A stretch of DNA of 46,863 nt, taken from contig VMSP01000007.1 of NCBI GenBank assembly GCA_013792135.1, positions 1 to 46,863 of the forward strand, read 5' to 3'. Numbering within the stretch: the stretch's first letter is position 1; each line of letters starts with the position of its first letter. This document shows, piece after piece, positions 9,180-46,672 of the stretch. Below the pieces are notes generated by a model. That model was not told the origin of the DNA. It ran no database searches and saw nothing but the letters and a program-made list of their open reading frames with translations. This DNA comes from Desulfocapsa sp. Lineage in GTDB: Bacteria; Desulfobacterota; Desulfobulbia; Desulfobulbales; Desulfocapsaceae. Position numbers and translations under genes: made by a program.

Positions 9180-9254
9180 GAAAATTTTATATAGTAAAAA
9201 AATATCAAAATGTGTAGCGAGAATGTGACAATATTTTTCCATTCACCAATATGA

Positions 9255-9327: not shown

Positions 9328-9353
9328 ATCAAATAGGCAGCTCGGTTTTTTTT
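9315..9353 (+). terminator. Rho-independent terminator overlapping the riboswitch
   Basis: Arms GCCGGGTTGCC (9315-9325) and GGCAGCTCGGT (9336-9346) pair over 11 bp including G-U pairs and are followed by a run of T at 9346-9353. The 5' arm is the receptor strand of the c-di-GMP aptamer, so the two structures exclude each other. This is the expression platform of the riboswitch. Confidence 0.85.
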
Positions 9354-28963: not shown

Positions 28964-29851
28964 ATGACAGCAAAGATCATAAGCGGTACTGAAGTGGCAA
29001 AGGCAATCCGTGAAGAGTTAAAGGTTGAAGTTGCCGAGCTGATGGAGAAACACGGGATCATCCCTGGTCTGGTTACCATTCTTGTTGGCGAGGATCCTGC
29101 TTCTCAATCCTATGTGGCTGCCAAAAACAAAACGGCCCATGCCCTCGGAATTCATTCTGAGCAGGTGACTCTGGCTGCCGACACCCGTGAGGCGGATCTG
29201 CTGGCGCTGGTTGTTAAATATAATAATGATTCGAAGATTCACGGGATTCTGGTACAGCTTCCTCTGCCCAAGCATATCAACGAGGCCAATGTCCTTTATG
29301 CCATCAGTCCGGACAAGGATGTGGATGGTTTCCATCCTGTGAATGTGGGCAAGATGGTGCTGGGCGAGCAGTGTTTTCTTCCCTGTACTCCCCATGGTAT
29401 TTTGGAGTTGTTGGTGCGCAGCGGTGTGCAGACCAGCGGTGCCGAGGTGGTGGTTATTGGTCGTAGTAATATTGTGGGCAAGCCCATTGCTAATCTGATG
29501 CTGCAGAAACGTCCCGGCGGCAATGCCACGGTTACCCTTTGTCATACCCGGACCAAGGATATGGCGGCCCATTGCCGGCGTGCCGATATTCTGATTGCGG
29601 CGGTTGGGGTGCCCAAAATGGTCACTGCTGATATGGTAAAAGATGGAGTTGCGATCATCGATGTCGGGGTCAATCGTATCGGCATGAGCGAGTCCGGTAA
29701 GGCGATCCTGGCCGGTGATGTTGATTTTGAGGCGGTGAAAGAGAAGGCCTCCTGTATCACCCCCGTTCCTGGTGGCGTCGGTCCCATGACGATTACCATG
29801 CTGATGAAGAATACTGTGCAGGCGGCAAAAATAGCTGGAAAGCTGATCTGA
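28964..29851 (+). CDS. folD: Methylene-THF dehydrogenase / methenyl-THF cyclohydrolase
   Basis: 295 residues, start after TGAGGGA. The folate site motifs EDPASQSYVAAKNKTAHALGI (split here over residues 43-63) and GILVQLPLPKHIN, the PCTPHGILELL segment, the NADP site VVVIGRSNIVGKPIANLML, and the end TPVPGGVGPMTITMLMKN are complete. It interconverts methylene-, methenyl- and formyl-THF in the cytoplasm. Here it opens the cluster for the folate (methyl) branch of the Wood-Ljungdahl pathway and supplies methylene-THF to the MetF domain two genes on. Confidence 0.97.
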   Translation: MTAKIISGTEVAKAIREELKVEVAELMEKHGIIPGLVTILVGEDPASQSYVAAKNKTAHALGIHSEQVTLAADTREADLLALVVKYNNDSKIHGILVQLPLPKHINEANVLYAISPDKDVDGFHPVNVGKMVLGEQCFLPCTPHGILELLVRSGVQTSGAEVVVIGRSNIVGKPIANLMLQKRPGGNATVTLCHTRTKDMAAHCRRADILIAAVGVPKMVTADMVKDGVAIIDVGVNRIGMSESGKAILAGDVDFEAVKEKASCITPVPGGVGPMTITMLMKNTVQAAKIAGKLI

Positions 29852-29909
29852 TACAAAAAGTTACACTACGAGTTATCGTTCCCATACGATTTATCCTGGA
29901 GGAAACACT

Positions 29910-31892
29910 ATGAGTGATGAGAGAAACGGATGCAGCTCCTGTAATACGATTAGCCTTGCGTCAACAAAGGATCTGTTGAATCAGGATCTGGCCAAACAGG
30001 TACGCACGGCCTATGATCGCATTGACAGTAGGGGTATGTCATCCTGTCTTTTTGGTTCCAGCGGCACATGTTGTAAAAACTGTAATATGGGGCCATGTCA
30101 GATTATTGATGGTGTTGAATCCATGATAGGTGTCTGCGGGGCTACGGCTGATACTGTGGCCGCCAGAAATTTCGCCAGGACTATTGCGGCAGGTACTGCC
30201 GCTCATACCGATCATGCCCGGGAGATGGTGCGCGGCTTTATCGCCACAGCCAAAGGCGAAACGCCTCATGAGATCAAAGACGTGCAGAAGCTGCATGCCA
30301 TGGCTGAGATCTTTGGTGTTGCTATCGAAGGACGTGACAAAAACGAGATTGCCCTTGAGCTTGGCAATAAGGCCCTGGCCGAGTTTGGTCAGCAGGACGG
30401 AACGCTCACCATGCTCAAGCGGGCCCCGAAAAAACAGCAGGCGATCTGGAAAAAACTGGGAGTTGAGCCGCGCGGCATTGACCGTGAGGTAGTGGAAACC
30501 ATGCATCGGACCCATATGGGTGTTGATCAGGAATACCGCAATATCATGCTGCAGGGATCGCGCTGTGCCCTGGCAGATGGTTGGGGCGCGTCCATGCTCT
30601 CCACTGAACTTACCGATATCATGTTCGGCACCCCTGTTCCCCGGCGTGCCGTTGTTGATCTCGGGGTGTTGAAGGGTGATCATGTCAATGTCACCGTCCA
30701 TGGTCATGAACCGCTGTTGGCTGAGTCGCTTTGTCTGGCGGCCGAAGAGCCGGAGATTCTGGCTTTAGTCAAAAAGGTGGGGGCCAAGGGGATCAATCTT
30801 GCCGGGGTCTGTTGTACCGGCAATGAGATCCTTATGCGTCGCGGGATCCCTGTGGCAGGCAGTTTTATCCAGCAGGAGATGGTGCTGGCCACCGGTGCCG
30901 TTGAAGCTATGGTGGTTGATGTCCAGTGCGTTATGCAGTCAGTGGCCCAGATCGTCAAGGGGAAACATACTGATATTATCACCACCAATTATCGGGCCAA
31001 GATGCCTGATGCTATTCATATTCAGTTTGAAGAACATGATGCCATGGGGTCGGCCAAAAAAATTCTGATCAAGGCCATTAATAACTTTAAAAAGCGTGGC
31101 GAGTATTATATCCCTACAGACAAGAAATTTGATGTGGTGGTAGGTTTCAGCCATGAAACCATCAACTACATGCTGGGCGGACGTTTCCGGCAGAGCTACC
31201 GGCCTCTCAATGATAATATTATCAATGGCCGGATCAAGGGTGTGGCGGCGATAGTTGGATGTGAACATTATAAATATGCCGATGACGTCCACTTCAAGAT
31301 TGCCGTTGAACTGCTGAAGAATAATGTCCTGATTCTGGCTACCGGATGTGCGGCTCAGGCCCTTGGCAGGATGGGGTTGATGCGGCCCGAGGCTGCGGCT
31401 GAGTACTGCGGAGCAGGTCTTGCAGAAGTCTGCGAGACCGTTGGTATGCCTCCTGTTCTCCATGTCGGATCCTGTGTCGATAACAGTCGCCTGTTGATAG
31501 CCTTGACCGAGATGGTGAAAGAGGGTGGTTTGGGTGAGTCCATTGCCGATCTGCCGGCCTGTGGTACGGCCCCCTTGTGGATGAGTGAAAAGGCAGTTGC
31601 CATCGGCCAGTATTTTGTAGCCAGCGGTGCCCATGTTGTGTTCCAAAATCTTCCGGTTACCGGCGCCAAGGCTTTTAACAAGTATCTCCTTGAGGGAATG
31701 AAGGAAGAGTATGGAGCCTGCTGGGATTACGAAGAAGATCCGATCAAATTGGCCCATAAGATGATCAAAGCCATTGATGGCAAGCGTGAGGCCTTGGGGA
31801 TTAACAAGAAACAGGATCGTGTCCTCTTTGATATGGGGATGCGTCGAGAGCTGACTACGGGTATTCCGGGTCTGGGTTGCGGACAGAAATAA
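29910..31892 (+). CDS. cooS: Anaerobic carbon monoxide dehydrogenase catalytic subunit
   Basis: 660 residues, ribosome site TGGAGGAAA. The N-terminal Cys cluster region (CLFGSSGTCCKNCNMGPCQI) binds the B and D [4Fe-4S] clusters. Ligands of the NiFeS C-cluster appear in the core: VCCTGNEIL, VVDVQCVMQ, IVGCEHYKYAD, LATGCAAQAL, HVGSCVDNSR. It interconverts CO2 and CO. Next to acsB, acsC and acsD it is best read as the CODH partner (AcsA type) of the acetyl-CoA synthase complex rather than as a stand-alone CO oxidiser. No CooF ferredoxin or CooC/AcsF ATPase gene is adjacent. Confidence 0.95.
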   Translation: MSDERNGCSSCNTISLASTKDLLNQDLAKQVRTAYDRIDSRGMSSCLFGSSGTCCKNCNMGPCQIIDGVESMIGVCGATADTVAARNFARTIAAGTAAHTDHAREMVRGFIATAKGETPHEIKDVQKLHAMAEIFGVAIEGRDKNEIALELGNKALAEFGQQDGTLTMLKRAPKKQQAIWKKLGVEPRGIDREVVETMHRTHMGVDQEYRNIMLQGSRCALADGWGASMLSTELTDIMFGTPVPRRAVVDLGVLKGDHVNVTVHGHEPLLAESLCLAAEEPEILALVKKVGAKGINLAGVCCTGNEILMRRGIPVAGSFIQQEMVLATGAVEAMVVDVQCVMQSVAQIVKGKHTDIITTNYRAKMPDAIHIQFEEHDAMGSAKKILIKAINNFKKRGEYYIPTDKKFDVVVGFSHETINYMLGGRFRQSYRPLNDNIINGRIKGVAAIVGCEHYKYADDVHFKIAVELLKNNVLILATGCAAQALGRMGLMRPEAAAEYCGAGLAEVCETVGMPPVLHVGSCVDNSRLLIALTEMVKEGGLGESIADLPACGTAPLWMSEKAVAIGQYFVASGAHVVFQNLPVTGAKAFNKYLLEGMKEEYGACWDYEEDPIKLAHKMIKAIDGKREALGINKKQDRVLFDMGMRRELTTGIPGLGCGQK

Positions 31893-31909
31893 AAGACTGA
31901 ATGTTGAAA

Positions 31910-31934
31910 GCAGGGTGCGCGCGGTGTACCCTGC
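31910..31934 (+). other. Stem-loop between cooS and metF-acsD
   Basis: Exact 7-bp arms GCAGGGT and ACCCTGC enclose an 11-nt loop. There is no T run after it, so it is more likely a transcript-stability or processing element than a terminator. Confidence 0.5.
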
Positions 31935-31985
31935 AACTGAATCGTTACGAATTTAGCGAGTTTTTCTGATGGAGGAGCGCGTCCG

Positions 31986-34670
31986 ATGAAATCGGGGAGT
32001 AATCTTGAAAGGGTGTTGAGGGCTGGAGAGTTCGCGGTAACAGGTGAACTGGGGCCTCCTAAAAATGGGAACCCTGAAGTGGTGCGGGAAAAGGCGCGTC
32101 TCTTGAAAGGTCATGTGGATGCGGTAAATATCACCGACTGCCAGACGGCGATCGTTCGCATGTCATCAATTGCTGCGGGTCTGATTACCCAGAATGAAGG
32201 GGTTGAGCCTGTAATCCAGATGACCTGTCGTGACAGGAATCGTATTGGGATGCAGTCGGATATTCTGGGTGCGCAGGCCTTGGGTCTGAAAAACCTGCTC
32301 TGTCTGACTGGTGATCATCAGAAATTCGGCAATCATCCTGGATCAAAAGGAGTTTTTGATATGGACTCCATTCAGATGCTCGGCATGGTTAAGGCCATGC
32401 GGGATGAAAAACAATTTCAATGCGGTGAGGAAATAAAGAGTAATGAACCCCGGTTCTTCCTCGGTGCGGCTGCCAATCCTTTCGCTCACCCCTTTGAATA
32501 TCGGGCGGTACGTTTAGGGAAAAAGGTGGCCGCCGGCGCAGATTTTATTCAGACCCAGATCATCTATAATGTGGAAAGATTTGCCAAATTCATGGAGATG
32601 GTTCGTGATCTTGGGCTTGATGAAAAGGTCTTTATCCTGGCTGGCGTCACTCCTCCCAAGTCCCTTGGCATGGCTCGCTACATGAAGAGCTCGGTACCCG
32701 GCATGGATGTGACCGATGACGTGATCCGGCGGATGCAGGATGCCAAAGACAAGCAGGAGGAAGGAATCAACATCTGTGTTGATATCATCCGGCAGGTCAA
32801 GGAGATCAAGGGTGTGGCCGGTGTCCATGTAATGGCCATTGAATGGGAAAGCGCGGTGCCGGAGATCCTTAAACGGGCCGGACTGCTGCCACGGCCATCC
32901 ATTTTCGGCGAGGCTGTAGCCGAAGGTGTTACGCCTGAAAAAGAGACTCAGGAATCCATCCATATTCAGGCTGTGGATATGGAGAAGCTCCTGGTGAAGG
33001 CCAGAGCTGAAGCAGCAGAGATCGTTGCAACTGCCCGCAGAGAGGCTGAGTCGCTTATGGTGAAGGCTCAGGCAGCAAAGCTGGGTATCGGTGGTGCTCA
33101 GGTGGTTGTGGCTGATACGAAAACGACTGGAACAAGTGTGCCCACGGGCGAAATAGATGACGCAGGAGAGCATGAGATGAATGAAAAAGAGCGTATCATG
33201 GCCTTGGAGGCCATGAATCATGGACTATCCGCCTTGAAAAAGGCCTATGGCTTGTCCGACGAGCAGTTTGAGGCCATTACTAATTTTGCAGGCGCTCATG
33301 CCATCCTCAATCGTGAACCGCAAAAGTCGGTTGTGGCTTCTGCGCCTGTTGCCCCTGAAGCTGCTCCTGCAGCAGCTCCTGTAGCAGCGCCTACTCCGAA
33401 AGTAGATACGGCAGCAGAAGATGCTGCCAAGGCCGCGGCTGAGGCAAAGGTAAAGGCTGAAGCCAAGGCTGCAGCAGATGCTGCTGGACAGGCCAAGGCG
33501 CAGGAAGCGGTTCAACAGGCGGCTCAGGAAAAGTCCGCAGCAGAAGCAAAAATAAAGGCTGATGCTGAGGCAAAGGCTGCGGCAGAGGCCAAGGCCAAGA
33601 CCGAAGAAGAGGCAAAGGCAAAAGCCGCTGCCGAGGCTGCAGCTCAGGTTACAGCTCCAACTGCTGGTGCCGATTTCGGAGTATCCTCATTGGCCCTTGA
33701 GAAGACGACACTGGCCGAGCGCGCTAGCCAGGTTGATGAAAAATCTTATAAAGAAAAATATACCGGGGTCATCCGCGAGACCGTTCTCGGGAATGGCGAT
33801 CATACCATTACTGTCGGTGGTAGTGCATCCATGCCCTTCCATCTCTTTGAAGGCATTCATCCGCACAAAGCTTTGATTGCCATGGATGTGCTCGATGCAA
33901 GACCTGACGACTGGCCAGAGACTCTGGCTCAGCATTTTACCGATGTCATGGATAATCCGGTTGCCTGGGCCCAGAAATGTATCAAGGAGTATGGTGCCGA
34001 GGCTATTAATATCTCTCTGGTTTCCACCGATCCCAACGGCATGAATCGCTCTGCATCTGATGCGTCGAAGATTGCCGCCCAGATAATTGAGGCGGTTGAG
34101 GTACCCATCATCGTCTGGGGATGCGGTAATAATGAAAAAGATACAGAGACCCTGCGCGATCTGACCTCAGTTATCGGCAACAAGAAAGTGTGCCTGGCTC
34201 CCCTTGAGGATGCCAATTATCGTGCTGTTGGCGCTACTGCCATGGCCTTCCAGCACGCCATTGTCGCAGCCTCTCCTATTGACGTGAATCTGGCTAAACA
34301 GTTGAATATCCTCCTGCAGAACCTTGGCGTTTCCTTGGAAACAGTGCTGATGGATCCATCCGTAGGTGCCCTTGGCTATGGTATTGAGTACACCTACTCA
34401 GTCATGGAGCGTATCCGTATGGCCGCCCTGATTCAACAGGATGAGAAGCTGCAGGTTCCCATTATCTGTAATCTTGGCCGTGAGGTGTGGAAGGCTAAAG
34501 AGACCAAGCTGCCCACAGATACCATGATTGGTGATCAGGAGAAGCGGGGAATCATGATGGAGGCCCTGACTGCAAGCTGTATGCTTATGGCTGGTGGTGA
34601 GGTTTTGATCATGCGTCATCCCAAGGCGGTGGCCATGACTAAGGCATTGATCAATGGTTTGATGGGCTGA
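31986..34670 (+). CDS. MetF-AcsD fusion: methylene-THF reductase joined to corrinoid protein small subunit
   Basis: One uninterrupted frame of 894 residues, ribosome site ATGGAGGAG. Residues 1-305 are a MetF-type barrel (FAVTGELGPPKNGNP, NLLCLTGDHQKFGNHPGSKG, FIQTQIIYNVERFAKFM, FILAGVTPPKS). Residues about 306-560 are a linker: a charged helix (VKARAEAAEIVATARREAES), a small conserved-looking segment (LSALKKAYGLSDEQFEAI), then a long Ala/Lys/Glu repeat. Residues about 561-894 are the CODH/ACS delta subunit (TVGGSASMPFHLFEG, INISLVSTDPNGMN, LGYGIEYTYSVMERIRMA). AcsD pairs with AcsC to form the corrinoid iron-sulfur protein that carries the methyl group. The fusion would tether the enzyme forming methyl-THF to the methyl carrier. 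MetF and AcsD are usually separate proteins of about 300 residues. The domain calls are firm; channelling is inference. Confidence 0.93.
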   Translation: MKSGSNLERVLRAGEFAVTGELGPPKNGNPEVVREKARLLKGHVDAVNITDCQTAIVRMSSIAAGLITQNEGVEPVIQMTCRDRNRIGMQSDILGAQALGLKNLLCLTGDHQKFGNHPGSKGVFDMDSIQMLGMVKAMRDEKQFQCGEEIKSNEPRFFLGAAANPFAHPFEYRAVRLGKKVAAGADFIQTQIIYNVERFAKFMEMVRDLGLDEKVFILAGVTPPKSLGMARYMKSSVPGMDVTDDVIRRMQDAKDKQEEGINICVDIIRQVKEIKGVAGVHVMAIEWESAVPEILKRAGLLPRPSIFGEAVAEGVTPEKETQESIHIQAVDMEKLLVKARAEAAEIVATARREAESLMVKAQAAKLGIGGAQVVVADTKTTGTSVPTGEIDDAGEHEMNEKERIMALEAMNHGLSALKKAYGLSDEQFEAITNFAGAHAILNREPQKSVVASAPVAPEAAPAAAPVAAPTPKVDTAAEDAAKAAAEAKVKAEAKAAADAAGQAKAQEAVQQAAQEKSAAEAKIKADAEAKAAAEAKAKTEEEAKAKAAAEAAAQVTAPTAGADFGVSSLALEKTTLAERASQVDEKSYKEKYTGVIRETVLGNGDHTITVGGSASMPFHLFEGIHPHKALIAMDVLDARPDDWPETLAQHFTDVMDNPVAWAQKCIKEYGAEAINISLVSTDPNGMNRSASDASKIAAQIIEAVEVPIIVWGCGNNEKDTETLRDLTSVIGNKKVCLAPLEDANYRAVGATAMAFQHAIVAASPIDVNLAKQLNILLQNLGVSLETVLMDPSVGALGYGIEYTYSVMERIRMAALIQQDEKLQVPIICNLGREVWKAKETKLPTDTMIGDQEKRGIMMEALTASCMLMAGGEVLIMRHPKAVAMTKALINGLMG

Positions 34671-34707
34671 TTTCAGGAAATAGCCATACAATAAAGGAGT
34701 TTATATT

Positions 34708-36912
34708 ATGTCGAAGATCATCTGTTCCGCTGCCATTCGTGGGGCCCGGAAAATTATAGATATGGCCGAGGAGAGTTATGAAGAGGCGTTGAAGAAATAT
34801 GGCGCTGATCATGAGGTTTCCTTTCCAAATACCGCCTATTATCTGCCAGTTATCTACAGTATGCTGGGCGCGAAGGTGGAAAAATTAGGTGATATGAAGG
34901 ATATCTTTCAGGAATGTCACAAGTTGATGCCGCCTGTGGTGACCGGGGATATCTGGCTGCCCTATCTGGCACCGGCCCTTGATGCCGGTATGGCTACCTT
35001 TTTTGCTGAGGAGATGTATGAGGCTGTTCGATATCTGAATACGCCCAACTATTACACTAAAACCGAGGATCCAACTGCCGATAGCATCTGGCTTGGCGCG
35101 GCTGATGATGTTATCTTCCGCAAACGCGGGGTTGAATTTGTTGACGGCACAGCCCCGGGTTTTGCTGCAATCATGGGAACCCCTGCCGACAAGGAAGTGG
35201 CCTCCAGGATTGCTCTCGAATTGCAGGAGAAAAATCTCTATATCTTCATGCATGACCAGACAAACGGCCTGACTATGCCTGACCTGCTGGTTCAAAATAA
35301 TGTTCAGGTGGGCTGGAATACGCGCCTGGTTCCTTTTGGCCAAAGCTATACCACAGCGGTCTTTGCCATCGGTTTTGCCTGTCGCGTGGCCATGGCCTTT
35401 GGAGGGATCAAACCTGGTGATTATAAAGGCAATCTGATCTACAATAAAGACCGGACTTTTGCCTTTGTCATGGCATTTGGCCCGGTAAGTGATGAGTGGT
35501 ACGCCAATGCCGCCGGTGCTATCAATTGGGGATTTCCGACGATCTCTGATTATGATATCCCCGAAGTTTTGCCCACCGGGATCTGTACCTACGAGCATGT
35601 CGTCTCCAATATCCCTCATGACGAGATCGTTCAGAAGGCCATCGAGGTACGCGGCCTGAAGGTGAATATCACCAAGATCGATATTCCCCTGGCCTTTGGC
35701 CCTGCCTTTGAAGGTGAACGGGTGCGTAAGGATGAGCTGTTCATGGAGTGCGGTGGTGGCCGGACTCCTGGTGTTGAGGTGCTTATTTCCAAAAACATGG
35801 ACGAGATTGAGGATGGTCTGGTCACACTCGAAGGGCCCGATATCTGTGATATTGAGCAGGGTCAGAATCTGCCTTTGGGCATTCTGGTCGAGGTGGCTGG
35901 GCGTCAGATGCAGTCTGATTTTGAACCGATCCTTGAACGTCAGTTCCATCATCTGATCAACTATATTCAGGGTATCATGCACATGGGCCAGCGGAATATC
36001 ATGTGGGTGAGGATTGGTAAGGCAGCAGTTGAAAAGGGATTTTCCTTTAAACACATCGGCACTGTCCTGCACGGGAAGTTGCATCAGGAGTTTGGCGCCA
36101 TCGTTGACAAGATCCAGGTGAAGCTCTACACCGTTGAGGATAAGGTGCGCGAGGTCATGGCCCTGGCTTCCTCTGTCTATACCGAGCGTGATCTCCGTCT
36201 GGGAGCTATGACTGATGAGACCGAGGATGTGTTCTATTCCTGTACCCTCTGTCAGTCCTTTGCCCCAAGCCATGTCTGTGTTATCACCCCTGAGCGTATC
36301 GGGATGTGTGGAGCCTATAACTGGCTGGATGGCAAGGCCTCCTATCAGATCAATCCAACCGGCCCCAACCAGCCCATTGAGAAGGGTGAATGTACTGACC
36401 CTGATAATGGCTATTACGTTGGTATCAACGAGTTTGTTAATCAGGCATCCCGGGGTGCTGTCCCTGAGGTCAGTTGCTATTCCCTGATGAATAACCCCAT
36501 GACAGCCTGTGGTTGTTTTGAGGCCATTGCTGCCATGCTGCCCACCTGTAACGGAATCATGGTGGTGAATCGTGATTTCCTCGGAATGACACCATCAGGA
36601 ATGAAGTTTACCAGTCTTGCCGGTATGGCCGGCGGCGGTAATCAGACTCCCGGTTTCATGGGGGTAAGCAAGCACTATATGACCAGTAACAAGCTGTTCA
36701 AGGCCGAGGGCGGACTCAAACGTGTGGTCTGGCTGCCCAAGATGCTGAAGGAAGAGATCAGCGAGAAACTGAAAGAGGTTTGTAAGAATATTGGTATGCC
36801 TGAGCTTTATGACATGATTGCCACTGAGGAGCAGGGGACCACCGAAGAGGAGATCCTCAAATTCCTCAAGGAAAAAGGGCATCCGGCGCTGGAGATGGAG
36901 TCGGCTGTTTAG
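34708..36912 (+). CDS. acsB: Acetyl-CoA synthase (CODH/ACS beta subunit)
   Basis: 734 residues, the bacterial length that includes the N-terminal CODH-binding domain; ribosome site AAAGGAG. The A-cluster ligands are in CTLCQSFAPSHVC (from about residue 512), GMCGAYNWLDG and MTACGCFEAI. It joins the methyl group from the corrinoid protein, CO from CooS and CoA to form acetyl-CoA, or runs in reverse. It sits directly between the MetF-AcsD fusion (37 bp away) and acsC. Confidence 0.97.
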   Translation: MSKIICSAAIRGARKIIDMAEESYEEALKKYGADHEVSFPNTAYYLPVIYSMLGAKVEKLGDMKDIFQECHKLMPPVVTGDIWLPYLAPALDAGMATFFAEEMYEAVRYLNTPNYYTKTEDPTADSIWLGAADDVIFRKRGVEFVDGTAPGFAAIMGTPADKEVASRIALELQEKNLYIFMHDQTNGLTMPDLLVQNNVQVGWNTRLVPFGQSYTTAVFAIGFACRVAMAFGGIKPGDYKGNLIYNKDRTFAFVMAFGPVSDEWYANAAGAINWGFPTISDYDIPEVLPTGICTYEHVVSNIPHDEIVQKAIEVRGLKVNITKIDIPLAFGPAFEGERVRKDELFMECGGGRTPGVEVLISKNMDEIEDGLVTLEGPDICDIEQGQNLPLGILVEVAGRQMQSDFEPILERQFHHLINYIQGIMHMGQRNIMWVRIGKAAVEKGFSFKHIGTVLHGKLHQEFGAIVDKIQVKLYTVEDKVREVMALASSVYTERDLRLGAMTDETEDVFYSCTLCQSFAPSHVCVITPERIGMCGAYNWLDGKASYQINPTGPNQPIEKGECTDPDNGYYVGINEFVNQASRGAVPEVSCYSLMNNPMTACGCFEAIAAMLPTCNGIMVVNRDFLGMTPSGMKFTSLAGMAGGGNQTPGFMGVSKHYMTSNKLFKAEGGLKRVVWLPKMLKEEISEKLKEVCKNIGMPELYDMIATEEQGTTEEEILKFLKEKGHPALEMESAV

Positions 36913-36915
36913 AAA

Positions 36916-37018
36916 CCGTTACTAAATGAGCATGGCTGTTTCTGCTCATTTAGTTTACGGATTCTTATGCCGCTCCCAAGAAACAGCCAATATTTTCCGG
37001 CTGTTTCTTGGAGTGGCG
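36916..37018 (+). other. Two consecutive stem-loops in the acsB-acsC gap
   Basis: Stem 1 pairs CCGTTACTAAATGAGCA (36916-36932) with TGCTCATTTAGTTTACGG (36943-36960), one bulge. Stem 2 pairs GCCGCTCCCAAGAAACAGCC (36969-36988) with GGCTGTTTCTTGGAGTGGCG (36999-37018), one or two mismatches. Neither is followed by a clear T run. They may protect or process the transcript, or set the acsB to acsC ratio. Confidence 0.75.
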
Positions 37019-37136
37019 TCTAGCAGATAAGATAGAAAGTCCAATTACTGATTTTTTTAGTGAATTGAGGAAAGTATATCGCTTTTCAGCTCACTATGAC
37101 TTAATTTTTTTGTTGATACAACTGGAGGATATTATC

Positions 37137-38492
37137 ATGGCTTTAACCGGCATTCAAATTCTCAAGATGCTGCCTAAAAAGAACTGCGGTGAGTGCAGCA
37201 TCCCAACCTGCCTGGCCTTTGCCATGAAGGTTGCGGCTGGTCAGGTAGAAATTGATACCTGCCCCTATGTCAGTGATGAGGCCAAGGCCATGATAGGGGA
37301 GGCTTCTGCCCCACCGATTCGCACCTTGAAGCTGGGTTGTGGTGATGATGCCTTTACCGTGGGTGGCGAGACCTGCATGTTCAGGCATGAAAAACGTTTC
37401 GTCAATCCTACTGGTATTGCCGTGCTGGTGACAACGGACATGGACGAGGCTGCTGTCAGTGGCCGGATTGAGCGTTTCAATACCTTTGTCTATGAACGTG
37501 TCGGTGTGATCATGAAGGCCGATATTATTGCCGCCAAAGACAGTAAAAATGACGAGGCTTCTTTTAGCGCCCTGGTGCAGAAGGTGCTGGATGGTTCTGC
37601 CCGTGCCAGCCTGATCCTGATCAGTGACACACCTGCCCATCTTGCTGCTGCCGCCAAGCTCTGCGGTACGCGTATCCCGTTGCTCTACGGTGCCACCGCA
37701 GAGAATGCCGATGCCATGATTCAGATTGCCAAGGATTGTTCCGCACCCCTTGCAGTCAAGGGTACAAGTATTGATAATTGTATTGATGTGACCAATACCC
37801 TGCTGGCTGCAGGCCTGAAGGATCTGGCCATTGATACCGGTGCCAGAACTTTGCGCGCTGCCTTTGAAGATAATGTCGTGGCCAGAAGATCTGCAGTGAA
37901 GGCTAAATTCAAGCCTATGGGATTTCCGACCCTGACCTTTCCCTGTGAGATGAGTGATGATCCGATGATGGAGGCGATGATAGCCTCTATCCTGATTGCC
38001 AAGTACGCAGGCATCATTGTCCTTTCAGACCTGCAGGGCGATATCCTCTTCCCACTGCTGCTTGAGCGGATGAATATCTTTACCGATCCACAGCGGCCGA
38101 TGGTGGTGACCGAGAATGTCTATCCGCTTACCGGTCCTGGCGAAGATTCTCCAGTGGTTATTACCTGTAACTTCTCGCTTACCTATTTTATCGTCTCTGG
38201 TGAGATCGAGGGCTCCAAGGTACCAACATGGCTTCTCATTAAAGACACAGAGGGCCTCTCCGTGCTTACGGCCTGGGCGGCTGGAAAATTCGGTGCTGAT
38301 ATGATCGCCCAGTTTGTGAAAAAGAGCGGGATTGAAGAGAAGGTAAAACATCGCGACCTGATTATTCCCGGCTATCTTGCCTCCCTTAAGGGAGAGCTGG
38401 AAGAGGAACTTCCTGCCTGGAATATCATTATCGGGCCGAGAGAGGCTGGCCATCTTCCTGTATTCCTGAAGGAATGGAAGCCGTCGAAATAG
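37137..38492 (+). CDS. acsC: Corrinoid iron-sulfur protein large subunit (CODH/ACS gamma)
   Basis: 451 residues from ATG 37137, preceded by TGGAGGA; the open frame reaches 43 codons further up but crosses the stem-loop region and is not family-like. The N-terminus MALTGIQILKMLPKKNCGECS, with CGECSIPTCLAFAMKVA and DTCPYV, binds the [4Fe-4S] cluster. The rest is the TIM-barrel and B12-binding region (LGCGDDAFTVGGETCMFRHE, VTENVYPLTGPGEDSPVVIT). With AcsD it carries the methyl group on cobalt between methyl-THF and AcsB. No acsE methyltransferase gene is seen nearby. Confidence 0.95.
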   Translation: MALTGIQILKMLPKKNCGECSIPTCLAFAMKVAAGQVEIDTCPYVSDEAKAMIGEASAPPIRTLKLGCGDDAFTVGGETCMFRHEKRFVNPTGIAVLVTTDMDEAAVSGRIERFNTFVYERVGVIMKADIIAAKDSKNDEASFSALVQKVLDGSARASLILISDTPAHLAAAAKLCGTRIPLLYGATAENADAMIQIAKDCSAPLAVKGTSIDNCIDVTNTLLAAGLKDLAIDTGARTLRAAFEDNVVARRSAVKAKFKPMGFPTLTFPCEMSDDPMMEAMIASILIAKYAGIIVLSDLQGDILFPLLLERMNIFTDPQRPMVVTENVYPLTGPGEDSPVVITCNFSLTYFIVSGEIEGSKVPTWLLIKDTEGLSVLTAWAAGKFGADMIAQFVKKSGIEEKVKHRDLIIPGYLASLKGELEEELPAWNIIIGPREAGHLPVFLKEWKPSK

Positions 38493-38523
38493 AGAACGAT
38501 AGTTGGCCTTAAGCCCAACCTGC

Positions 38524-38561
38524 ACTCGACCTATATTCTAAAGTGACAATGTAGGTCGAGT
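38524..38561 (+). other. Stem-loop between acsC and fdhA
   Basis: Exact arms ACTCGACCTA (38524-38533) and TAGGTCGAGT (38552-38561) enclose an 18-nt loop. A second, weaker complementarity (GTTGGCCTT with AAGCCCAAC) lies just before it. It may be an intercistronic processing or regulatory element. Confidence 0.55.
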
Positions 38562-38591
38562 TTAAACCCGACTCCACCATATGATTTGAGT

Positions 38592-41500
38592 ATGACTACT
38601 GTAACACTTACCATTAATGGCGCAGAGATAATTGCTGAGGCTGGCCTTACCATTCTTGAGGTTGCCAGACGATCGGATATCAATATTCCCACTCTCTGTC
38701 ATGTGCAGGGGAAACCTGCAGAGAACCCCTGCCAGATGTGTGTGGTGGAGATTGAAGGACAGAAAGGATTGATTCATTCTTGTGTGGGGCTGGCCCGGGA
38801 TGGGATGGTTATCTCTACTGATTCCGCTACGATTTCCGCTCACCGTCTGGAGCGTCTGGCCATCCTGGCTGAGACTCATTTTGGTGATTGTAAGGCTCCC
38901 TGTAATCTTACCTGTCCCGGTCAGATCAATGTCCAGGGCTATATAGCCCATGTTGCCAAGGGACAGTATGAAGAGGCCTTGCGTCTGGTCATGGAACGCA
39001 ACCCGCTTCCTTTTTCCGTGGGCCGGGTTTGCCCCCGTTTTTGTGAAACAAGGTGCCGTCGTCTCCTGGTAGACGAACCTGTCTCCATTAACCATCTGAA
39101 GCGTTTTGTGGCTGATTGGTGCATGCGCCATGAGATAGATCTGAAAATCCCCAAGGATGCTCCCACCGGCAAACGGATCGCGGTGATTGGCGGCGGTCCA
39201 TCCGGACTGACTGCCGCCCATTTTCTCACGAGGAAAGGGCACGATGTGACCATCTTCGAGTCTGCTCCCAAGCTGGGCGGGGCCTTGCGGTATGGCTTTC
39301 TGGAGTATCGGATCCCCAGGGATGTCCTTGATTACGAGATCAACACCATTCTGCGCTTGGGGATCTCTGTTAAACTCAGCCAGAAATGGGGAAAGGATTT
39401 TACCCTGCAGTCCCTGAAAGATCAGGGCTATGATGCCATTTATATCGCCACGGGTGCAGGTGTTGATACTCCCCTTGAAATACCGGGTGCAGTAAATCCG
39501 CACACCTCTTCGGCGATGAAGTATTTGCGTCAGGTTGCGGAAGGAAAAAAACCTGATATGGGACGGCGCGCTGCAGTGATCGGCGGCAATAATATTGCCA
39601 TGGAAGTGGCGCGTACCTTGATCAGACAGGGGGTGGCAGAGGTGACTGTCCTTTATCCCCGTTCCCGTACAGAGATGCCTGCCCATCAGCGGAATATCAG
39701 AGAGGCTCAGAAAGAAGGAGTGCAGTTTCTGCTTATGGCCTCTCCAGTTATGATCTGTGATTCCGTTGAACAAAATAGAAGACTGAATCTTGAATTAATC
39801 CGGATGAAACTGGGTGAGCCCGATGCTAAAGGGATCAGACAGCCAGAGCCTATTCCCGGATCCAGCAATACTCTGCAGGTGGATTCCATTGTCTCCTCTT
39901 TGGGCCAGACCGCTGTTGATGATACGTTCATTGGTGGAGATCTTGAAAAGTCTATTGCCCTCTCTCCCAACAAGACCATCGATGCCAATGTGCGCTCTTC
40001 GCAGATAAATATCGACGGAGTCTTTGCCGGCGGCGATGCAGTCAGTGGACCACGTTCGGTGATCCAGGCCGTTGTCTCTGCCCGTCGTGCTGCTGATAAT
40101 ATCCATTCTTTTGTCATGGGGACGCCCAAGGAAGAGGCTGAGAGCCGTTTTAACTTCACCCGCGGCAAGGGTTTTGATGACGTGGATCTGAGGAATTTTG
40201 ACGGGATTAATGTCAAGCTTCGTGAAAAGATGCCGACTCGTCCACCTGAGATCTGCAGTCAGGATTTTGATGAGGTGAAACTGGGATTTTCCGAGAAGAT
40301 GGCTCAGAATGAGGCCGAGAGATGTCTCTCCTGCGGATGTACTGCTTTTGATCGCTGTGGTCTCAAGGACCTTTCCATCAGTCATAATCTGAATATCAAC
40401 AAGAACGGCATGGGGAAGTTCCCTCATTATGCCAAGGATTTTTCTCATCCTGCCATTATTGTTGATAAAAACAAATGCATATTCTGTGGACGATGCGAGC
40501 GGGCCTGTGAATATGACGCCTTGGAGCTTGGTGCCAAGGCCTTTGATGCAAAGGGACGTCCTCTGGGTCTAATTCTGAATTTTAAGGACAATTGTGTCTC
40601 CTGCGGTAAGTGTGTTGACAACTGTTCCACCGGGGCCCTGAACAAGAAGGCCCAGACCATTCCTATCAATTCGGAACCGGTGAAAGAGGTGCGCAGCACC
40701 TGTCCTTATTGCGGCGCTGGCTGTCAGATCATACTCCGGGTCAAAGGCGACACCGTGATTGAAGTCGTTGCCGATCCAGAGCAGGCGCCCAACTATGGGG
40801 CCTTATGTGTCAAGGGCCGTTTTGGCCATGAGTTCATTCAGCATAAGGAGAGGCTGACCAAACCCCTGATCCGCAAGAACGGCATGCTGGTTGAAACCAG
40901 TTGGGATGAAGCCTATGATTACACGGCCAAGAAACTCTTTGATCTCAAAGCCATGTATGGCCCGGATTCCATTGCCGGGTTCTCCTGCGCCAGGGCTACC
41001 AACGAAGAAAACTTTCTCATGCAGAAGTTCATGCGCACCTCGATCGGTACCAATAATATCGATCATTGCGCCCGACTCTGACACGCTCCAACTGTGGCCA
41101 GTTTGGCCCTTTCATTTGGTAGCGGCGCGATGACAAGTTCCATCAGTGACGTTAAAGAATCGGATGTGATCATGGTGATTGGCTCCAATGCCGATACCAG
41201 CCATCCCACCATCGGACTGCGTATCCATCAGGCCAAGAAGAACGGAGCCAAGTTGCTGGTTGTCGATCCCCGGCGCACTGGTTTTGCCGATGAGGCTGAT
41301 ATTTGGTTGTGTTCAAATCCGGGTAGTGATGTTGCCCTGTTGAATGGTATGGTTCATATTATTCTGGAAGAGGATATCTGGGATAAAAAATTTGTTGAAG
41401 AACGTACTGAGAACTTCGAAGAATTGGAGATTGTTACTGCCAAGTACACACCTGAATACGTTGAAAAGATCACCGGCATCTCTGAGGAGCAGCTGCGCGC

Positions 41501-42716
41501 AGCCGCTCGACTCTATGCCTCACCCGGAAAAAAATGCGCCATTTATTACGGGATGGGCCTTGCCCATCATGCAACCGGCACCGATAATGTCAAGTCCATC
41601 GCCAATCTGGCCATGCTCTGCGGCAAGCTTGGGGTCGTGGGTGGCGGGGTGAATCCACTGCGCGGTCAGAATAATGTCCAGGGTGCCTGTGATATGGGCG
41701 CCCTCTACACGACTCTGCCCGGATATAGTGGTCTTGACAACAATGATGTCTTTGATCGCTTTGAAAAGTTGTGGGAGGTGAAGTTGCCCCGTCGTAAGGG
41801 CAAGGCCGCCACCGAGGTCTGGGATGCCATTCTTGAGGGTGATATCAAAGGGCTTTATTGCTTTGGTGAGGATCCGGTGCTTGCCGATCCTAACGCCTTG
41901 CATGCTGTACGGGCCCTGGAAAAGATTGATTTTCTCATCGTTCAGGATATCTTTCTCACCGAGACCGCCAAGATGGCCGATGTCGTCTTTCCAGCGGCCT
42001 GCTATGCTGAAAAAGATGGTACCTTCACCTGTACTGAGCGTCGGGTGCAGCGGGTTCGCAAGGCAGTGGATCCACCCGGTGAGGCCCGGCCTGACTGGCA
42101 GATATTCTGCGAACTTTCCCATCGCATGGGCTATGATATGCCCTACTCGAAACCGGAAGATATCTTCAAGGAAATAGCACTACTTATTCCTCAATATGCC
42201 GGGATCAGCTATGAGCGTATTGAGAAGGTAGGGCTGCAATGGCCGGTACCCGATCTGCAGCATCCCGGAACGCCGGTTCTCCATATCGGGAAATTCACCA
42301 AGGGCAGGGGCTTGTTTATCCCTGAGGATTATACCTCTCCCGTGGAGATGCCTGATGCCGACTATCCGCTGATCCTGACTACCATCAGAGAGACGGCTCA
42401 GTACAATTTTGGTTCCATGACCCGGAAGACTCCGGAAATTGAGGCCCTGTGTCCTGAGGCCCTGGCCGAGATCAATCCTGTTGATGCAGCCCGCTTGGGT
42501 ATCGCTGATCTGGATACAATCGAAGTCAGTTCAAGGCGCGGTTCGGTGCAGTTACGTGCCAAAATATCCGACCGTTCGCAGGTCGGCACCATTGCCATTC
42601 CGTATCATTTCGCTGAGGTTCCTGTGAATAACCTGACTTTAAACAGTCTTGACCGGCTTTCGCGCAGTCCACAGTATAAAATTTGCGCGATCAAGGCCAC
42701 AAAGGTCGAAACATAA
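38592..42716 (+). CDS. fdhA: Selenocysteine formate dehydrogenase fused to a GltD-like flavoprotein (in-frame UGA)
   Basis: About 1374 residues when the TGA at 41079-41081 is read as Sec (about residue 830): DHCARL-U-HAPTVASLA is the classic FdhA active site, and the frame continues cleanly to 42716. Order: [2Fe-2S] domain (LCHVQGKPAENPCQMC, about 35-60); a GltD-like Fe-S segment (CKAPCNLTCPG); FAD site IAVIGGGPSGLTAAH; NAD(P) site AAVIGGNNIAMEVA; two [4Fe-4S] clusters (CIFCGRCERAC, about 629, and CVSCGKCVDNCSTGAL); then the molybdopterin domain with CPYCGAGC (about 704). It interconverts formate and CO2, with the flavin module offering an NAD(P)H link. A hairpin (41088-41106, stem CCAACTG/CAG-TTGG with bulged U, loop TGGC) after the UGA is a SECIS candidate. 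ATG 38592 has no clear ribosome site. Confidence 0.93.
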
Positions 42717-42843
42717 GATGGCGTTGCGAAAAGACCCAAATACTTCGTTGTACTGCATCCTTCGTCACTGCGGCGTACCCAACAGTACGCCGCATTCCTC
42801 AGGATTTGTGCGCCTCGTCTTTGTGCTTTTTCGCTTAGCCATC
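42717..42843. repeat. MITE-like long imperfect palindrome between fdhA and hdrA
   Basis: The ends GATGGCGTTGCGAAAA and TTTTTCGCTTAGCCATC are inverted. The centre GCGGCGTAC-CCAACA-GTACGCCGC (42770-42793) is a perfect 9-bp hairpin, and ATCCTT/AGGAT arms lie between. The whole 127 bp can fold into one long hairpin. I recall similar intergenic repeats in deltaproteobacteria, unverified. It fills nearly the whole gap inside the cluster. Confidence 0.7.
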
Positions 42844-42892
42844 ATCTAAATATAAATGAAGACCCAAACGATCATTTTTCAGGAGTAACATT

Positions 42893-45800
42893 ATGGGTAA
42901 AGCAATGAAGAACAGAGAAGGAGCAGTCATGGTTCTCGGCGGTGGTATCGCCGGAATCCAGGCCGCGCTTGATCTGACGGAACTTGGTTTTTATGTCTAT
43001 CTGGTGGAGAAATCACCAGCGGTCGGCGGGGTGATGGCCCAGCTTGACAAAACCTTTCCGACCAATGACTGTTCACTCTGAATCCTGGCGCCAAAGCTGG
43101 TAGAGGCCGGTCGGTCTCCCAATATTGAAATGTTGACCAATGCTGATTTTCTGGCATTGGAAGGAACAGCAGGAAATTTCACCGCCACGATCAATATGCG
43201 GCCACGGTATATCGATGCCGATGCCTGTACTGCCTGTGGACTTTGTACCCAGTACTGCCCCAAGCATCATGTGGATCCCTATAATGAGGGGCTGGCCATT
43301 ACCCGGCCTATCCATATCGATTACGCCCAGGCTGTGCCTGCCACCTATTACATAGATCCGAGCTCCTGCCTCTTTTTGCAGCATGAGACCTGTCAGATCT
43401 GTGTGCCTGTCTGTCAGAGTCATGCCATTAATTTTAAGCAGCAGCCGGAAGAACGGAAACTGCAGATTGGGGCAGTGATCCTCTCGCCCGGTTTCGGCAA
43501 GATTGATCCCAAGACCCTGGAGAAGTTCAGCTACGGCAAACACCCGGATGTGGTCACAGCCTTTGAATTTGAACGGATGACCACTGCCTCCGGTCCCTTC
43601 CTGGGTGAGGTCAAATGTTTTTCCGACGGCAGGCATCCCAAACGGATGGCCTTTATCCAGTGCGTCGGCTCAAGAGACATCGGCTGCAATAACGGCTACT
43701 GTTCTTCCGTCTGCTGCATGTATGCCATCAAAGAGGCACTGGTGACCAAGGAGCATGATCCGGAAGTCGATATCACTATCTTCTACATAGATATCCGCAC
43801 CCAGGGCAAGGACTTTGACGCCGCCCGTGAGCGGGCCGAGGCCATCGGCATCAAGTTTGTCCGGGCCAAGGTGGCGGATGTCACTCCCTGGGAGAACCGT
43901 CTGCAACTGACCTATGCCACACTCGATGGTCAGCACAAGTTTGAGCCCTTTGATATGGTGGTGCTCTCCGTGGGCCTTGAGTCGCCCAAGGATGCCCAGA
44001 AGATTGCCGATATCACCAAGATCGACCTCAATAAATATGATTTCTGCGCCACCAATGGCTTCAACCCCCTGCAGACCAGTCAGGAGGGGATTGTGGTTGC
44101 CGGTGCCTTCCAGGGCCCCAAGGATATCCCTGAGTCCGTGACCCAGTCTTCGGCTGCCGCTTCATTGACCGCTGCATCGCTTAAAAAGGTGCGGGGCAAA
44201 GGCGTTGAGCTCAAGATTTATCCCGAGGAACAGGTGGTGGCGGAAGGCGATGAGGCCAGGATCGGTGTCTTTGTCTGTCATTGCGGCATCAATATCAGCT
44301 CGGTGGTGGATGTGGCCTCGGTTGCCAACTACGCCGGGGATATGAAGAATGTCACCTATTATACCGAAAACCTCTATTCCTGTTCCCAGGATGCCCAGGA
44401 GGTTATCAAGAAGAAGATCAAAGAGCACAAGCTGAACCGGGTGGTTATAGCAGCCTGTTCGCCGCGTACCCATGAGCCTCTCTTTCAGGAGACTTTGCGG
44501 GATGCCGGTCTGAACCGGAACCTCTTTGAGATGGTCAATATTCGCGATCAGTGTTCCTGGGTTCATGCCGGAGAGCCGGAGCTTGCCACCATCAAGTCCA
44601 AGGATCTGGTGCGCATGGCCGTCTCCAAGGCCCGTCATATCCAGTCCCTGCCCGAGCAGACGGTGCCGGTAACCCCCAAGGCCCTGATTATAGGCGCGGG
44701 CGTAGCGGGAATGACCGCCGCGCTGAACCTTGCCGAGCAGGGATTTGAGTCGGTCCTCATTGAAAAAGGGGAGAGTATCGGCGGTAATCTCAAGAATCTG
44801 CACCATACCCTGGCAGGCGACGAGGTGCAGTCGCACCTGAAGACCCTTGTCACCAAGGTTAACGGATCCAAAAATATAGATGTAATCTGCAATGCGGAGC
44901 TGGTGCAGACCGCAGGCTTTATCGGCAATTTTTCGTCGGTGATTGCCAGCGGTCATGGGAAGACCAAGGTCGAGCAGACCTTTGACCATGGCGTGATCAT
45001 TGTCGCCACCGGCGGCCGTGAGCATCGCCCTGACAAATATCTGCTCGGTAAGTCCAAAAAGGTTGTCACCCAGCAGGAGCTGGAGAAACAACTGGCGGGC
45101 AAGGCCAAGACCAGGGCTCCTGGTTCCATCGTCATGATTCAGTGTGCCGGCTCACGCGGTGATGATCTTAATTACTGCTCCAAGGTCTGCTGTAATCACG
45201 CCCTGAAGAATATTCTGAAGGTAAAGGAGATCAATCCTGAATCCCAGATCATTGTCCTCTACCGGGATATGCGCACCTATGGCTTTGCCGAGGACGCCTA
45301 CCTTGAGGCCCGCAAGATGGGGGTGGTCTTTATCCCCTATGAGGTGGATCGCAAACCTGAGGTAACGGAAAAGGGCGGGAAGGTTCAGGTACGTTTCTTC
45401 GACTCCATCATGCAGGAAGAGATGGTCATGAACCCGGATCTGGTGGCCCTCTCCGTGGGGATCGTGCCGGATGATACCGATACCCTCTCCAAGCTGTTGA
45501 AGCTGCCGGTGACGGCCAATAAGTTCTTCCTGGAGGCCCATGTAAAGCTGCGTCCGGTGGAGCTGTCAGTCTCCGGCGTCTATGTCTGCGGACTGGCCCA
45601 TGGACCCAAGCCTGTTGATGAGACCATCGTTCAGGCGCAGGCGGCTGCGGCTAAAGCAGCGATTCCGCTGGTCAAGGGCCATGTGACGGTTGATCCTATT
45701 GTCTCGAGTGTTGAGCAGGACAAGTGTATTGGCTGCGGCCTCTGTACCAGCCTCTGTCCCTACGGGGCCATTGTCATGCAGAAGGTGGATGGCAAGCGCA

Positions 45801-45943
45801 AGGCGGAGACTGTTTCCGCTTCCTGTAAGGCCTGCGGGATCTGCGCCGCCCATTGTCCAACCTTTGCCATCTCCATGGGCGGGTTTACCAATGAGCAGCT
45901 TATCTCCCAGATTGAGGCCTTCGGGGCCACTGGCGACAGATAA
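42893..45943 (+). CDS. hdrA: HdrA-like flavoprotein with duplicated module, selenocysteine form (in-frame UGA)
   Basis: About 1016 residues when TGA 43079-43081 is read as Sec (residue 63): [18 protein letters not shown], where other HdrA proteins have Cys. Ribosome site CAGGAG. Order: FAD site [15 protein letters not shown] (about 15-30); the Sec loop; ferredoxin-type clusters ([11 protein letters not shown], about 112, and [16 protein letters not shown]); a second HdrA module starting [10 protein letters not shown] (about 460) with its own FAD site [16 protein letters not shown] (about 597); and a C-terminal 2[4Fe-4S] domain ([14 protein letters not shown], about 945, [12 protein letters not shown]). 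HdrA is the bifurcating flavoprotein of heterodisulfide reductase complexes. Here it may couple formate, ferredoxin and methylene-THF redox steps through MvhD. No hdrBC is in the window. Confidence 0.93.
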
Positions 45944-45997
45944 TTTCAATTCTAAAAAATGATGGATCAAGTTTATTATATTTGAGGAGAATGTCTT

Positions 45998-46600
45998 ATG
46001 GCTGACCAGGAATTTAATCCCAGCATCCTTGGCTTTTTATGCAACTGGTGCTGTTACGCCGCGGCAGATGCTGCCGGTGTTTCACGGTTTCAATACCCGC
46101 CCAATATGCGGACCCTCAGGGTGATGTGTACCGGGCGCATCGATCCGGCCTTTGTTCTGCGCGCTCTGGCAGAAGGTGCAGATGGTATCTTCAGCGGCGG
46201 CTGACAACTTGGCGAATGCCATTACCAGGTTGGTAATTACGATGCAATGGGTGTGGATGCGCTGGTCAAGAAGGTCTTGAAGGATGTCGGTATCCGTGAG
46301 GAGCGGTACAGTCTGCAATGGGCCTCTGCTGCCGAGGCGCCGCGCTTTGTCCAGTTGATCACCAAGTTTACAAACCAGATCAAGGAGCTTGGCCCCATCG
46401 GTGAGGCCGAGGGTCTGTCCAAAGAAGAGCTGAAGGCCCGGATCGACAAGGCCCTGGCTGCCGTCTCCGATCAAAAGGTGCGGATCGCCTTTGGCAACGC
46501 CAGTAAATTCGTACGCAAAGATGGTATCTGGACCAATGAGCATATCAGCGGGATTGTGAACGAGAAGATGGAGAAGTCTCTGACCACGGCCCTAGGCTGA
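45998..46600 (+). CDS. mvhD: MvhD/FlpD-like iron-sulfur subunit, selenocysteine form (in-frame UGA)
   Basis: 200 residues when TGA 46202-46204 is read as Sec (residue 69): EGADGIFSGG-U-QLGECHYQVGN corresponds to the GADGVhhxGC-xxGDCHY motif of MvhD, whose first Cys is Sec in some methanogens. Ribosome site TGAGGAG. The N-terminal CNWCCYAAADAAG and VMCTGRIDPAFVL complete the [2Fe-2S]-type domain. The C-terminal half (from about residue 125) is helical and longer than the minimal MvhD. A hairpin ATTACC-AGGTT-GGTAAT at 46221-46237, about 17 nt after the UGA, is a good SECIS candidate. MvhD passes electrons to HdrA, which fits its place as last gene of the cluster. Confidence 0.92.
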
Positions 46601-46622: not shown

Positions 46623-46672
46623 AAAGAGAAAGGCCCAGCTTCTTTAAAGAAGCTGGGCCTTTCTCTTTTTAT
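46623..46672 (+). terminator. Rho-independent terminator closing the acetyl-CoA pathway cluster
   Basis: A perfect 46-bp palindrome (46623-46668; arms with AAGGCCCAGCTTCTTT and its complement) ending in a T run. It lies 22 bp after the mvhD stop, and its A-rich 5' arm makes it bidirectional. Confidence 0.95.

Follow-up and report, generated by a model that had tools for sequence, protein, structure and literature searches.

A putative triple-selenoprotein formate dehydrogenase unit encoded in the carbon-fixation gene cluster of Desulfocapsa sp. and its relatives

The cluster and its three UGA codons

The DNA analysed here, a stretch of 46,863 nucleotides from Desulfocapsa sp. (positions 1-46,863 of contig VMSP01000007.1, assembly GCA_013792135.1; hereafter the window, whose contig is labelled C96), carries a Wood-Ljungdahl pathway (WLP) cluster of eight genes in the order folD, cooS, metF-acsD, acsB, acsC, gltD-fdhA, hdrA and mvhD, all on the forward strand (Table 1). 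The gene list and order given by a first-pass annotation, made from the sequence alone, were confirmed for 28964-46600. Each of the last three genes contains a single in-frame UGA codon, and alignment to solved homologues bore out the annotation's statement that each codon lies at a known cysteine/selenocysteine (Cys/Sec) position, with Cys being found there in FdhF of the hydrogen-dependent CO2 reductase (7qv7) and in HdrA and MvhD of 5odc.

Relatives of the cluster were collected by an AcsC scan of 84,980 species genomes, which gave 263 relatives. The best 80 loci of these were kept as the comparison set, a choice that favours near relatives and includes a few loci from a shared assembly; by title, they are mostly Desulfobulbales-type metagenome assemblies. 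Counting only alignable positions within this set, UGA is kept in 67/67 fdhA, 60/60 hdrA and 52/53 mvhD genes, the exception in mvhD being a run of N at the site (L123), and 50 of the 51 loci covering all three sites have UGA at all three. Sequencing errors or decay as the source of the UGAs are ruled out by the recurrence of the same codon across dozens of assemblies.

Codon conservation around the UGAs was measured as identity per 13-codon window and ranked against all windows of the gene. The 13 codons 3' of the UGA rank 21 of 1362 in fdhA, 7 of 1004 in hdrA and 4 of 188 in mvhD, and the 13 codons 5' of it rank 31, 268 and 172, respectively; the signal is one-sided (3' of the UGA) in hdrA and mvhD, and not in fdhA. 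Folding without a shuffle control gave short hairpins behind the UGAs (loops GUU, GGUC and GGU), which coincide with the constrained codons in hdrA and mvhD. No selenocysteine insertion sequence (SECIS) family was matched in an Rfam scan of the window, and a search with RF00031 matched no genome, controls included, and is hence uninformative.

The genome was also searched for selA, selB and tRNA-Sec, and all three are present, on C87, C151 and C71 (UCA anticodon), respectively. A lack of selenocysteine machinery, as judged by these three genes, which the first-pass annotation had named as grounds for rejecting its proposal, is thereby ruled out. Taken from the presence of this machinery, the conservation of UGA and the unusual conservation of the codons behind it, selenocysteine is a well-supported reading of the three UGAs, against which it has to be weighed that the fdhA signal is weakly specific, given its similar ranks on the two sides, and that folding of the 48 nucleotides at minimum energy gives a structure other than the mvhD hairpin. 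A further HdrA of the same genome, encoded on C37 (L084:4810-4830) beside genes read as NiFe-hydrogenase, also has UGA at the site where the window HdrA has it (NDCSM-U-IIAPK).

Table 1 Features of the cluster, with window coordinates
Feature	Position	Strand	Evidence
folD, methylenetetrahydrofolate dehydrogenase/cyclohydrolase	28964..29851	+	Pfam PF02882/PF00763
cooS, CO dehydrogenase catalytic subunit	29910..31892	+	TIGR01702, 583 bits (cut-off 478)
metF-acsD fusion	31986..34670	+	Pfam MTHFR and CdhD; NF003376, 372 bits (cut-off 280)
acsB, acetyl-CoA synthase	34708..36912	+	NF040764, 1069 bits (cut-off 800)
acsC, corrinoid iron-sulfur protein (CoFeSP) large subunit	37137..38492	+	NF003195, 580 bits (cut-off 306)
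gltD-fdhA fusion, 1374 aa (amino acids)	38592..42716	+	TIGR01591; Fer2_4, Fer4_20, Pyr_redox_2, Molybdopterin
UGA (Sec) of fdhA, context HCARL-U-HAPTV	41079..41081	+	TGA in 67/67 alignable loci
SECIS-like hairpin of fdhA, GGCCA-GUU-UGGCC	41096..41108	+	Fold; codon constraint not one-sided
Non-coding stretch between fdhA and hdrA, inverted repeat 42770-42793	42743..42793	.	
hdrA, tandem of 1016 aa	42893..45943	+	
UGA (Sec) of hdrA, context NDCSL-U-ILAPK (CxxU)	43079..43081	+	TGA in 60/60 alignable loci
SECIS-like hairpin of hdrA, GAGGCC-GGUC-GGUCUC	43103..43118	+	Fold and codon constraint
mvhD with C-terminal extension	45998..46600	+	PF02662; alignment; structure model
UGA (Sec) of mvhD, context SGG-U-QLGECHY	46202..46204	+	TGA in 52/53 loci; exception a run of N
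SECIS-like hairpin of mvhD, AUUACCA-GGU-UGGUAAU	46221..46237	+	Local hairpin; codon constraint
Terminator-like hairpin then U run, cluster end	46623..46668	+	Read by eye

Domain architecture of FdhA, HdrA and MvhD

FdhA consists of a [2Fe-2S] domain, an NfnB/GltD-like domain for flavin adenine dinucleotide (FAD) and NAD(P)H, a pair of [4Fe-4S] clusters and a formate dehydrogenase domain of the molybdopterin type, and scores 849.5 bits against the formate dehydrogenase alpha family TIGR01591, above the cut-off of 666.25. It aligns with StnC 8oh5_C and with 9bov_A over about the first 1040 residues, the alignment to StnC being continuous across the N-terminal 635 residues. The residue equivalent to StnC K170 is Lys, where NfnB has the Glu of the FAD-proximal [4Fe-4S] cluster that marks NfnB-type bifurcation. 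This replacement suggests that the GltD flavin is probably non-bifurcating, leaving HdrA as the candidate. FdhA also retains the Arg by which NfnB protects FAD N5, but this residue is shared by the non-bifurcating StnC and is not decisive.

HdrA is a tandem, in which FAD module 1, carrying the Sec and an inserted ferredoxin (about residues 11-430), is followed by an HdrA N-terminal domain (453-606), FAD module 2 and two C-terminal [4Fe-4S] clusters, up to residue 1009. Three of its stretches, corresponding to the FAD module, the N-terminal domain and the C-terminal ferredoxin of solved HdrA, match 5odc_A in permuted order, and its score stays under the full-length cut-offs of NF040770 and NF041778. 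MvhD matches PF02662 with 164 bits (cut-off 22.3) and has a C-terminal extension of about 65 residues (about 136-200), for which three helices are predicted (model mean pLDDT, the predicted local distance difference test, of 88) and which the solved MvhDs (129-141 residues) lack. In a Foldseek search with MvhD, the only convincing match was the MvhD core of the solved complexes, with a TM-score near 0.6 (by query length), and the extension has no clear counterpart there.

Gene order in relatives

The comparison of gene order that the first-pass annotation had asked for showed that FdhA-HdrA-MvhD is kept behind acsC in many relatives. Of the 76 contigs that extend 1.2 kb or more past acsC, 74 have GltD-FdhA as the first cluster gene behind it, and all eight cluster genes are found in 40 of the 80 loci. 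The place behind acsC is taken by hdrA in the other two contigs (L156 and L196), as well as in L045 (genome G027), which belongs to another set.

A second triad with cysteine at all three positions

A search with the window FdhA revealed a second triad in the same genome, on C158 at about 61600-69660 (L220:1-7663 with L252). Its proteins have the architectures of those in the window and Cys at all three sites (NDCSLC in hdrA, GGCHPGECHY in mvhD and NCARVCHAP in gltD-fdhA), with identities to the window proteins of 50% for MvhD, 46% for FdhA and 55% for HdrA, the last measured on a similar copy on C62. The C-terminal extension of MvhD is common to both triads and absent in three other aligned MvhDs of the genome. 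The C62 copy (L221:5593-9936) belongs to a Cys hdrA-mvhD pair that lacks fdhA; this pair has a decaying tRNA-like gene copy and a HesB-like gene behind it.

Between hdrA and mvhD of the C158 triad lies a tRNA-Sec-like gene scoring 62 bits (gathering score 47), for which ARAGORN gave no call. Two further sets, of 38 close genomes and of 257 genomes of the order, were used for comparison. A close Cys-mvhD (E <= 1e-75) occurs in 54 of the 257 genomes; 30 loci were fetched and 29 scanned. A tRNA-like gene was found between hdrA and mvhD in 13 of the 29, spread over two families of the order, with 10 above the Rfam gathering score. Alignment of these 13 with the C62 copy showed U73 in all 14 sequences, a UCA anticodon in 13 and an encoded CCA in 11. 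According to what was reportedly described by Vargas-Rodriguez in 2018, tRNA-ReC has a tRNA-Sec-like body with the Cys-type discriminator U73 and a GCA or UCA anticodon, and is said to permit Cys at UGA with SelB. By its sequence, the C158 element looks like such a tRNA, because it carries UCA and U73, described as an identity element of cysteinyl-tRNA synthetase (PMC8762117), on a tRNA-Sec-like body.

It may tentatively be proposed, as a possibility that we hold at somewhat less than even, that two full versions of the complex are kept, one with Sec in the carbon-fixation operon and one with Cys on C158 for times of scarce selenium, and that the embedded tRNA either decodes UGA as Cys in the mRNAs of the remaining selenoproteins or acts as a selenium-sensing element of the operon. 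Weighing against this reading, 16 of the 29 scanned loci have no tRNA-like gene before mvhD, and 5 of the 14 copies are decaying, with an acceptor-stem base lost in G003 and C62, CCA altered in G009, G132 and G147, and the anticodon also altered in G147. Among the 13 tRNA-bearing loci, fdhA comes next in six, and all six of their elements are intact by eye; of the seven loci lacking fdhA, three have an intact element. In the RNAalifold analysis no pair showed changes in both partners, and most pairs were invariant. The variable arm, which lies outside the RNAalifold consensus, varies between groups yet still folds, an unscored and merely suggestive observation.

Two other tRNA genes were observed. 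On C114 (L054:1502-1590) lies a tRNA with UCA, U73, a long variable arm and an ordinary 7-bp acceptor (Rfam tRNA, 60 bits), whose body presumably resembles tRNA-Gly and which is a possible opal suppressor. In another locus, a tRNA-Sec gene (L248:883-971; ARAGORN, Rfam 57 bits) lies behind a Cys-mvhD locus, on the side opposite to that of the 13 tRNA-like genes.

A putative FdhA-HdrA-MvhD complex

Synteny in relatives, the second, all-Cys triad of the same architectures and the solved methanogen complexes of formate dehydrogenase, MvhD and HdrA make it probable that the three proteins form one complex, most likely acting as an NAD(P)H/ferredoxin-linked formate dehydrogenase/CO2 reductase, to which we assign a probability of about 0.6. 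The best evidence for a single unit is the occurrence of the same three genes together twice in one genome, and the first-pass annotation's view of the three selenoproteins as one functional unit is supported in this respect. We infer the physical complex, as well as HdrA being its (con)bifurcating part, the direction of the reaction and the choice of cofactors.

In such a complex, NAD(P)H would react at the FAD of the GltD domain, from which Fe-S clusters would carry electrons to the Mo/W site with its Sec; MvhD would connect FdhA and HdrA, whose two FAD modules would exchange electrons with ferredoxin. The net reaction would most likely be a reversible reduction of CO2 powered by NAD(P)H and reduced ferredoxin together, with flavin-based (con)bifurcation, if any, placed in HdrA. 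Reduction of CO2 from these two donors is compatible with the potentials. The bifurcation that the first-pass annotation had suggested as possible, with formate, NAD(P)H and ferredoxin as partners, is plausible.

Several observations weigh against the proposed complex. No HdrBC-like high-potential partner is encoded in the window cluster. The catalytic half of FdhA exists in two versions, being only 47-50% identical in 13 of 60 loci (L132, L134, L136, L139, L140, L145, L147, L149, L151, L183, L190, L193 and L198) while the GltD half is still 65-72% identical; in the loci read, HCARLUHAP or HCARYUHSP follows the same GltD half, which suggests a domain swap or replacement. Furthermore, the linkage is not strict, because three genomes (L045/G027, L156 and L196) have hdrA-mvhD after acsC without an adjacent fdhA, in L196 with unrelated open reading frames (ORFs) between them; their GltD-FdhA-like match, with one in-frame TGA, lies on another contig and is 47%, 45% (partial, 6-1120) and 58% identical, respectively.

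This separability in three genomes would fit GltD-FdhA being a self-sufficient NAD(P)H-dependent CO2 reductase, with HdrA-MvhD as a separate ferredoxin-linked unit that is merely co-expressed, as would its StnC-like architecture, which includes an NAD(P)H site of its own. The three genes nevertheless occur together twice in the genome with matching Sec or Cys states, and we consider an independent FdhA quite unlikely.

A different electron source is conceivable for the triad. HdrA (HdrA/HdrL) might take electrons from the sulfur pathway (DsrC trisulfide via DsrAB) and hand them on to FdhA, either directly or in the form of NAD(P)H, linking sulfur oxidation to CO2 fixation with no bifurcation. 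HdrBC-like CCG proteins are the usual DsrC-facing parts, and the triad has none; CCG (hdrB-type) matches lie on the other contigs C95, C140, C37, C60 and C138, those on C95, C140 and C37 adjoining their own hdrA genes (ORFs as read). We regard this route as unlikely, even though it has been proposed for the same cluster by the authors of the Desulfurivibrio dismutans AMeS2 study (PMC12142623) and the AMeS2 locus (L178) has all three Sec codons. The NAD(P)H/ferredoxin-linked complex remains our preferred interpretation.

The MetF-AcsD fusion and pathway genes elsewhere in the genome

The first-pass annotation had listed hdrBC, metV, acsE and fhs as absent. This holds for C96, on which searches with the fhs, acsE, metV and hdrB families gave no match at E <= 0.001, and does not hold for the genome, in which fhs (C19), metV (C110), an acsE candidate on C62 (a pterin-binding protein adjoining a RACo-type activator) and the hdrB-type genes named above were found. 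An incomplete pathway is ruled out by the fhs, metV and acsE candidate genes on other contigs.

MetF-AcsD comprises an MTHFR domain (residues 7-299), a long Ala/Lys/Glu-rich linker and the CoFeSP small subunit from about residue 587, a fusion that may tie the formation of methyl-tetrahydrofolate to the corrinoid protein. Of the 60 loci holding both halves, 58 encode them in a single open frame, and a MetF-AcsD match was obtained in 36 of the 38 close genomes, 23 of them (own included) near full length and a 24th from residue 39. In the two remaining loci (L145 and L198) metF and acsD are not in one frame, and several family members have them as separate genes.

The annotation had further suggested that the triad serves the MetF domain. 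HdrA-MvhD could indeed mainly do so, as in the MetFV-HdrA-MvhD complex of acetogens, with FdhA as a mere operon neighbour, and in the three genomes with fdhA elsewhere it is HdrA-MvhD that remains behind acsC. Two genomes, of which G017 is a family member with unfused metF, show related arrangements, G017 having the order hdrA, mvhD, metV, metF and G019 the same order plus an HdrC-like gene between mvhD and metV. In contrast, metV, matched in 37 of the 38 close genomes, sits in its own module of an FeS protein, mvhD and metV, which is intact in all 30 loci fetched and lies apart from the window-type cluster; in the own genome, included in this count, it is found on C110 (L081:13318-15176) as FeS protein, short MvhD and MetV. 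With metV on C110 and the CCG-type genes on other contigs, the window cluster does not unite metV and hdrBC with metF and hdrA in the manner of MetFV-HdrABC-MvhD. The Cys triad, moreover, pairs HdrA-MvhD with FdhA, and none of the 30 Cys-mvhD loci, taken with 1.5 kb flanks, gave a metF match of more than 60 bits. Because of the conserved metV module, service of the triad to MetF has become less likely, and as the main role of HdrA-MvhD it appears quite unlikely. The FeS-mvhD-metV module is the likely partner of the MetF domain and could meet the FdhA-HdrA-MvhD unit that we favour.

Other features of the window

The start of acsC is probably ATG 37137 (MALTGIQILK) rather than the first in-frame TTG at 37008, and mvhD terminates at an ordinary UGA stop. 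The palindrome between fdhA and hdrA recurs in L033/L121, which represent a single genome. Far upstream of the cluster, a c-di-GMP-I riboswitch was detected at 9251-9328 (57 bits, gathering score 35), about 250 bases upstream of the ORF at 9579.

Significance and comparison with known systems

If the triad is one complex, it would be a widely kept solution by which autotrophic sulfur-cycling bacteria reduce CO2 to formate, the hardest step of the methyl branch, on little energy, with three selenium atoms per complex as part of that solution. Natural Sec and Cys versions in one genome permit a direct test of the benefit of selenium. For bacterial Sec/Cys switching, the tRNA of the Cys operon would be relevant; if it reads UGA as Cys, one operon would supply both the Cys isoenzymes and the tRNA rescuing selenoproteins with Cys. 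A literature search, thin on subscription journals, found no published account of its place in the Cys operon, and the Cys triad with the embedded tRNA is the more novel lead compared with the Sec cluster.

The individual elements of the Sec cluster have precedents. In methanogens, formate dehydrogenase, MvhD and HdrA are joined in one solved complex (7bkb; 9t1s). These differ from the window proteins in having a formate dehydrogenase chain of 674-686 residues without the GltD fusion and an HdrA of 658-671 residues that is not a tandem. The methanogen complexes also include HdrBC. StnC (8oh5) shares with the window FdhA the layout of [2Fe-2S], GltD and FdhF-like domains and the Lys at K170; it takes NADPH and its FdhF domain is described as catalytically inactive (PMC10482914), whereas the window FdhA has Sec and passes the formate dehydrogenase alpha cut-off.

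Multi-selenoprotein hdrA operons were reported in 2006 (PMC1794560). Such hdrA-frhD-frhG-frhA operons of deltaproteobacteria, with adjacent selenoprotein genes including HdrA and FrhD/MvhD, are described in PMC1794560 and PMC13188914 as tied to hydrogenase subunits, in contrast to formate dehydrogenase and the WLP genes in the window. For Desulfobacterium autotrophicum HRM2, Sec in HdrA, MvhD and FdhA and a linkage of almost every hdrA/hdrL locus to mvhD were described in 2009, with hdr loci V and VI also linked to fdhB-fdhA (PMC2702500). FdhB and FdhA are separate genes in HRM2; WLP genes are not listed in the legend to its hdr loci, and a different figure shows them as a single locus (PMC2702500).

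The closest match is D. dismutans AMeS2, whose fused FdhAB, HdrA/HdrL and MvhD were described in 2025 as lying next to WLP genes and being similarly expressed (PMC12142623). The same genes lie side by side there, and the Desulfurivibrio sp. AMeS2 contig L178 has the same order with UGA at all three sites. The fdhAB-hdrL-mvhD and WLP cluster is thus not new, and published Sec-HdrA, Sec-MvhD and Sec-FdhA, together with the AMeS2 cluster, rule out that the three proteins are unprecedented. In the main text of the AMeS2 paper (PMC12142623), which proposes DsrC-linked electron flow, selenocysteine goes unmentioned and 'selen' occurs once, for the medium; selenium being unmentioned in that model alters what expression or reconstitution tests must supply. 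The arrangement itself is already known; what the present analysis adds is that it is widely conserved with three selenoproteins.

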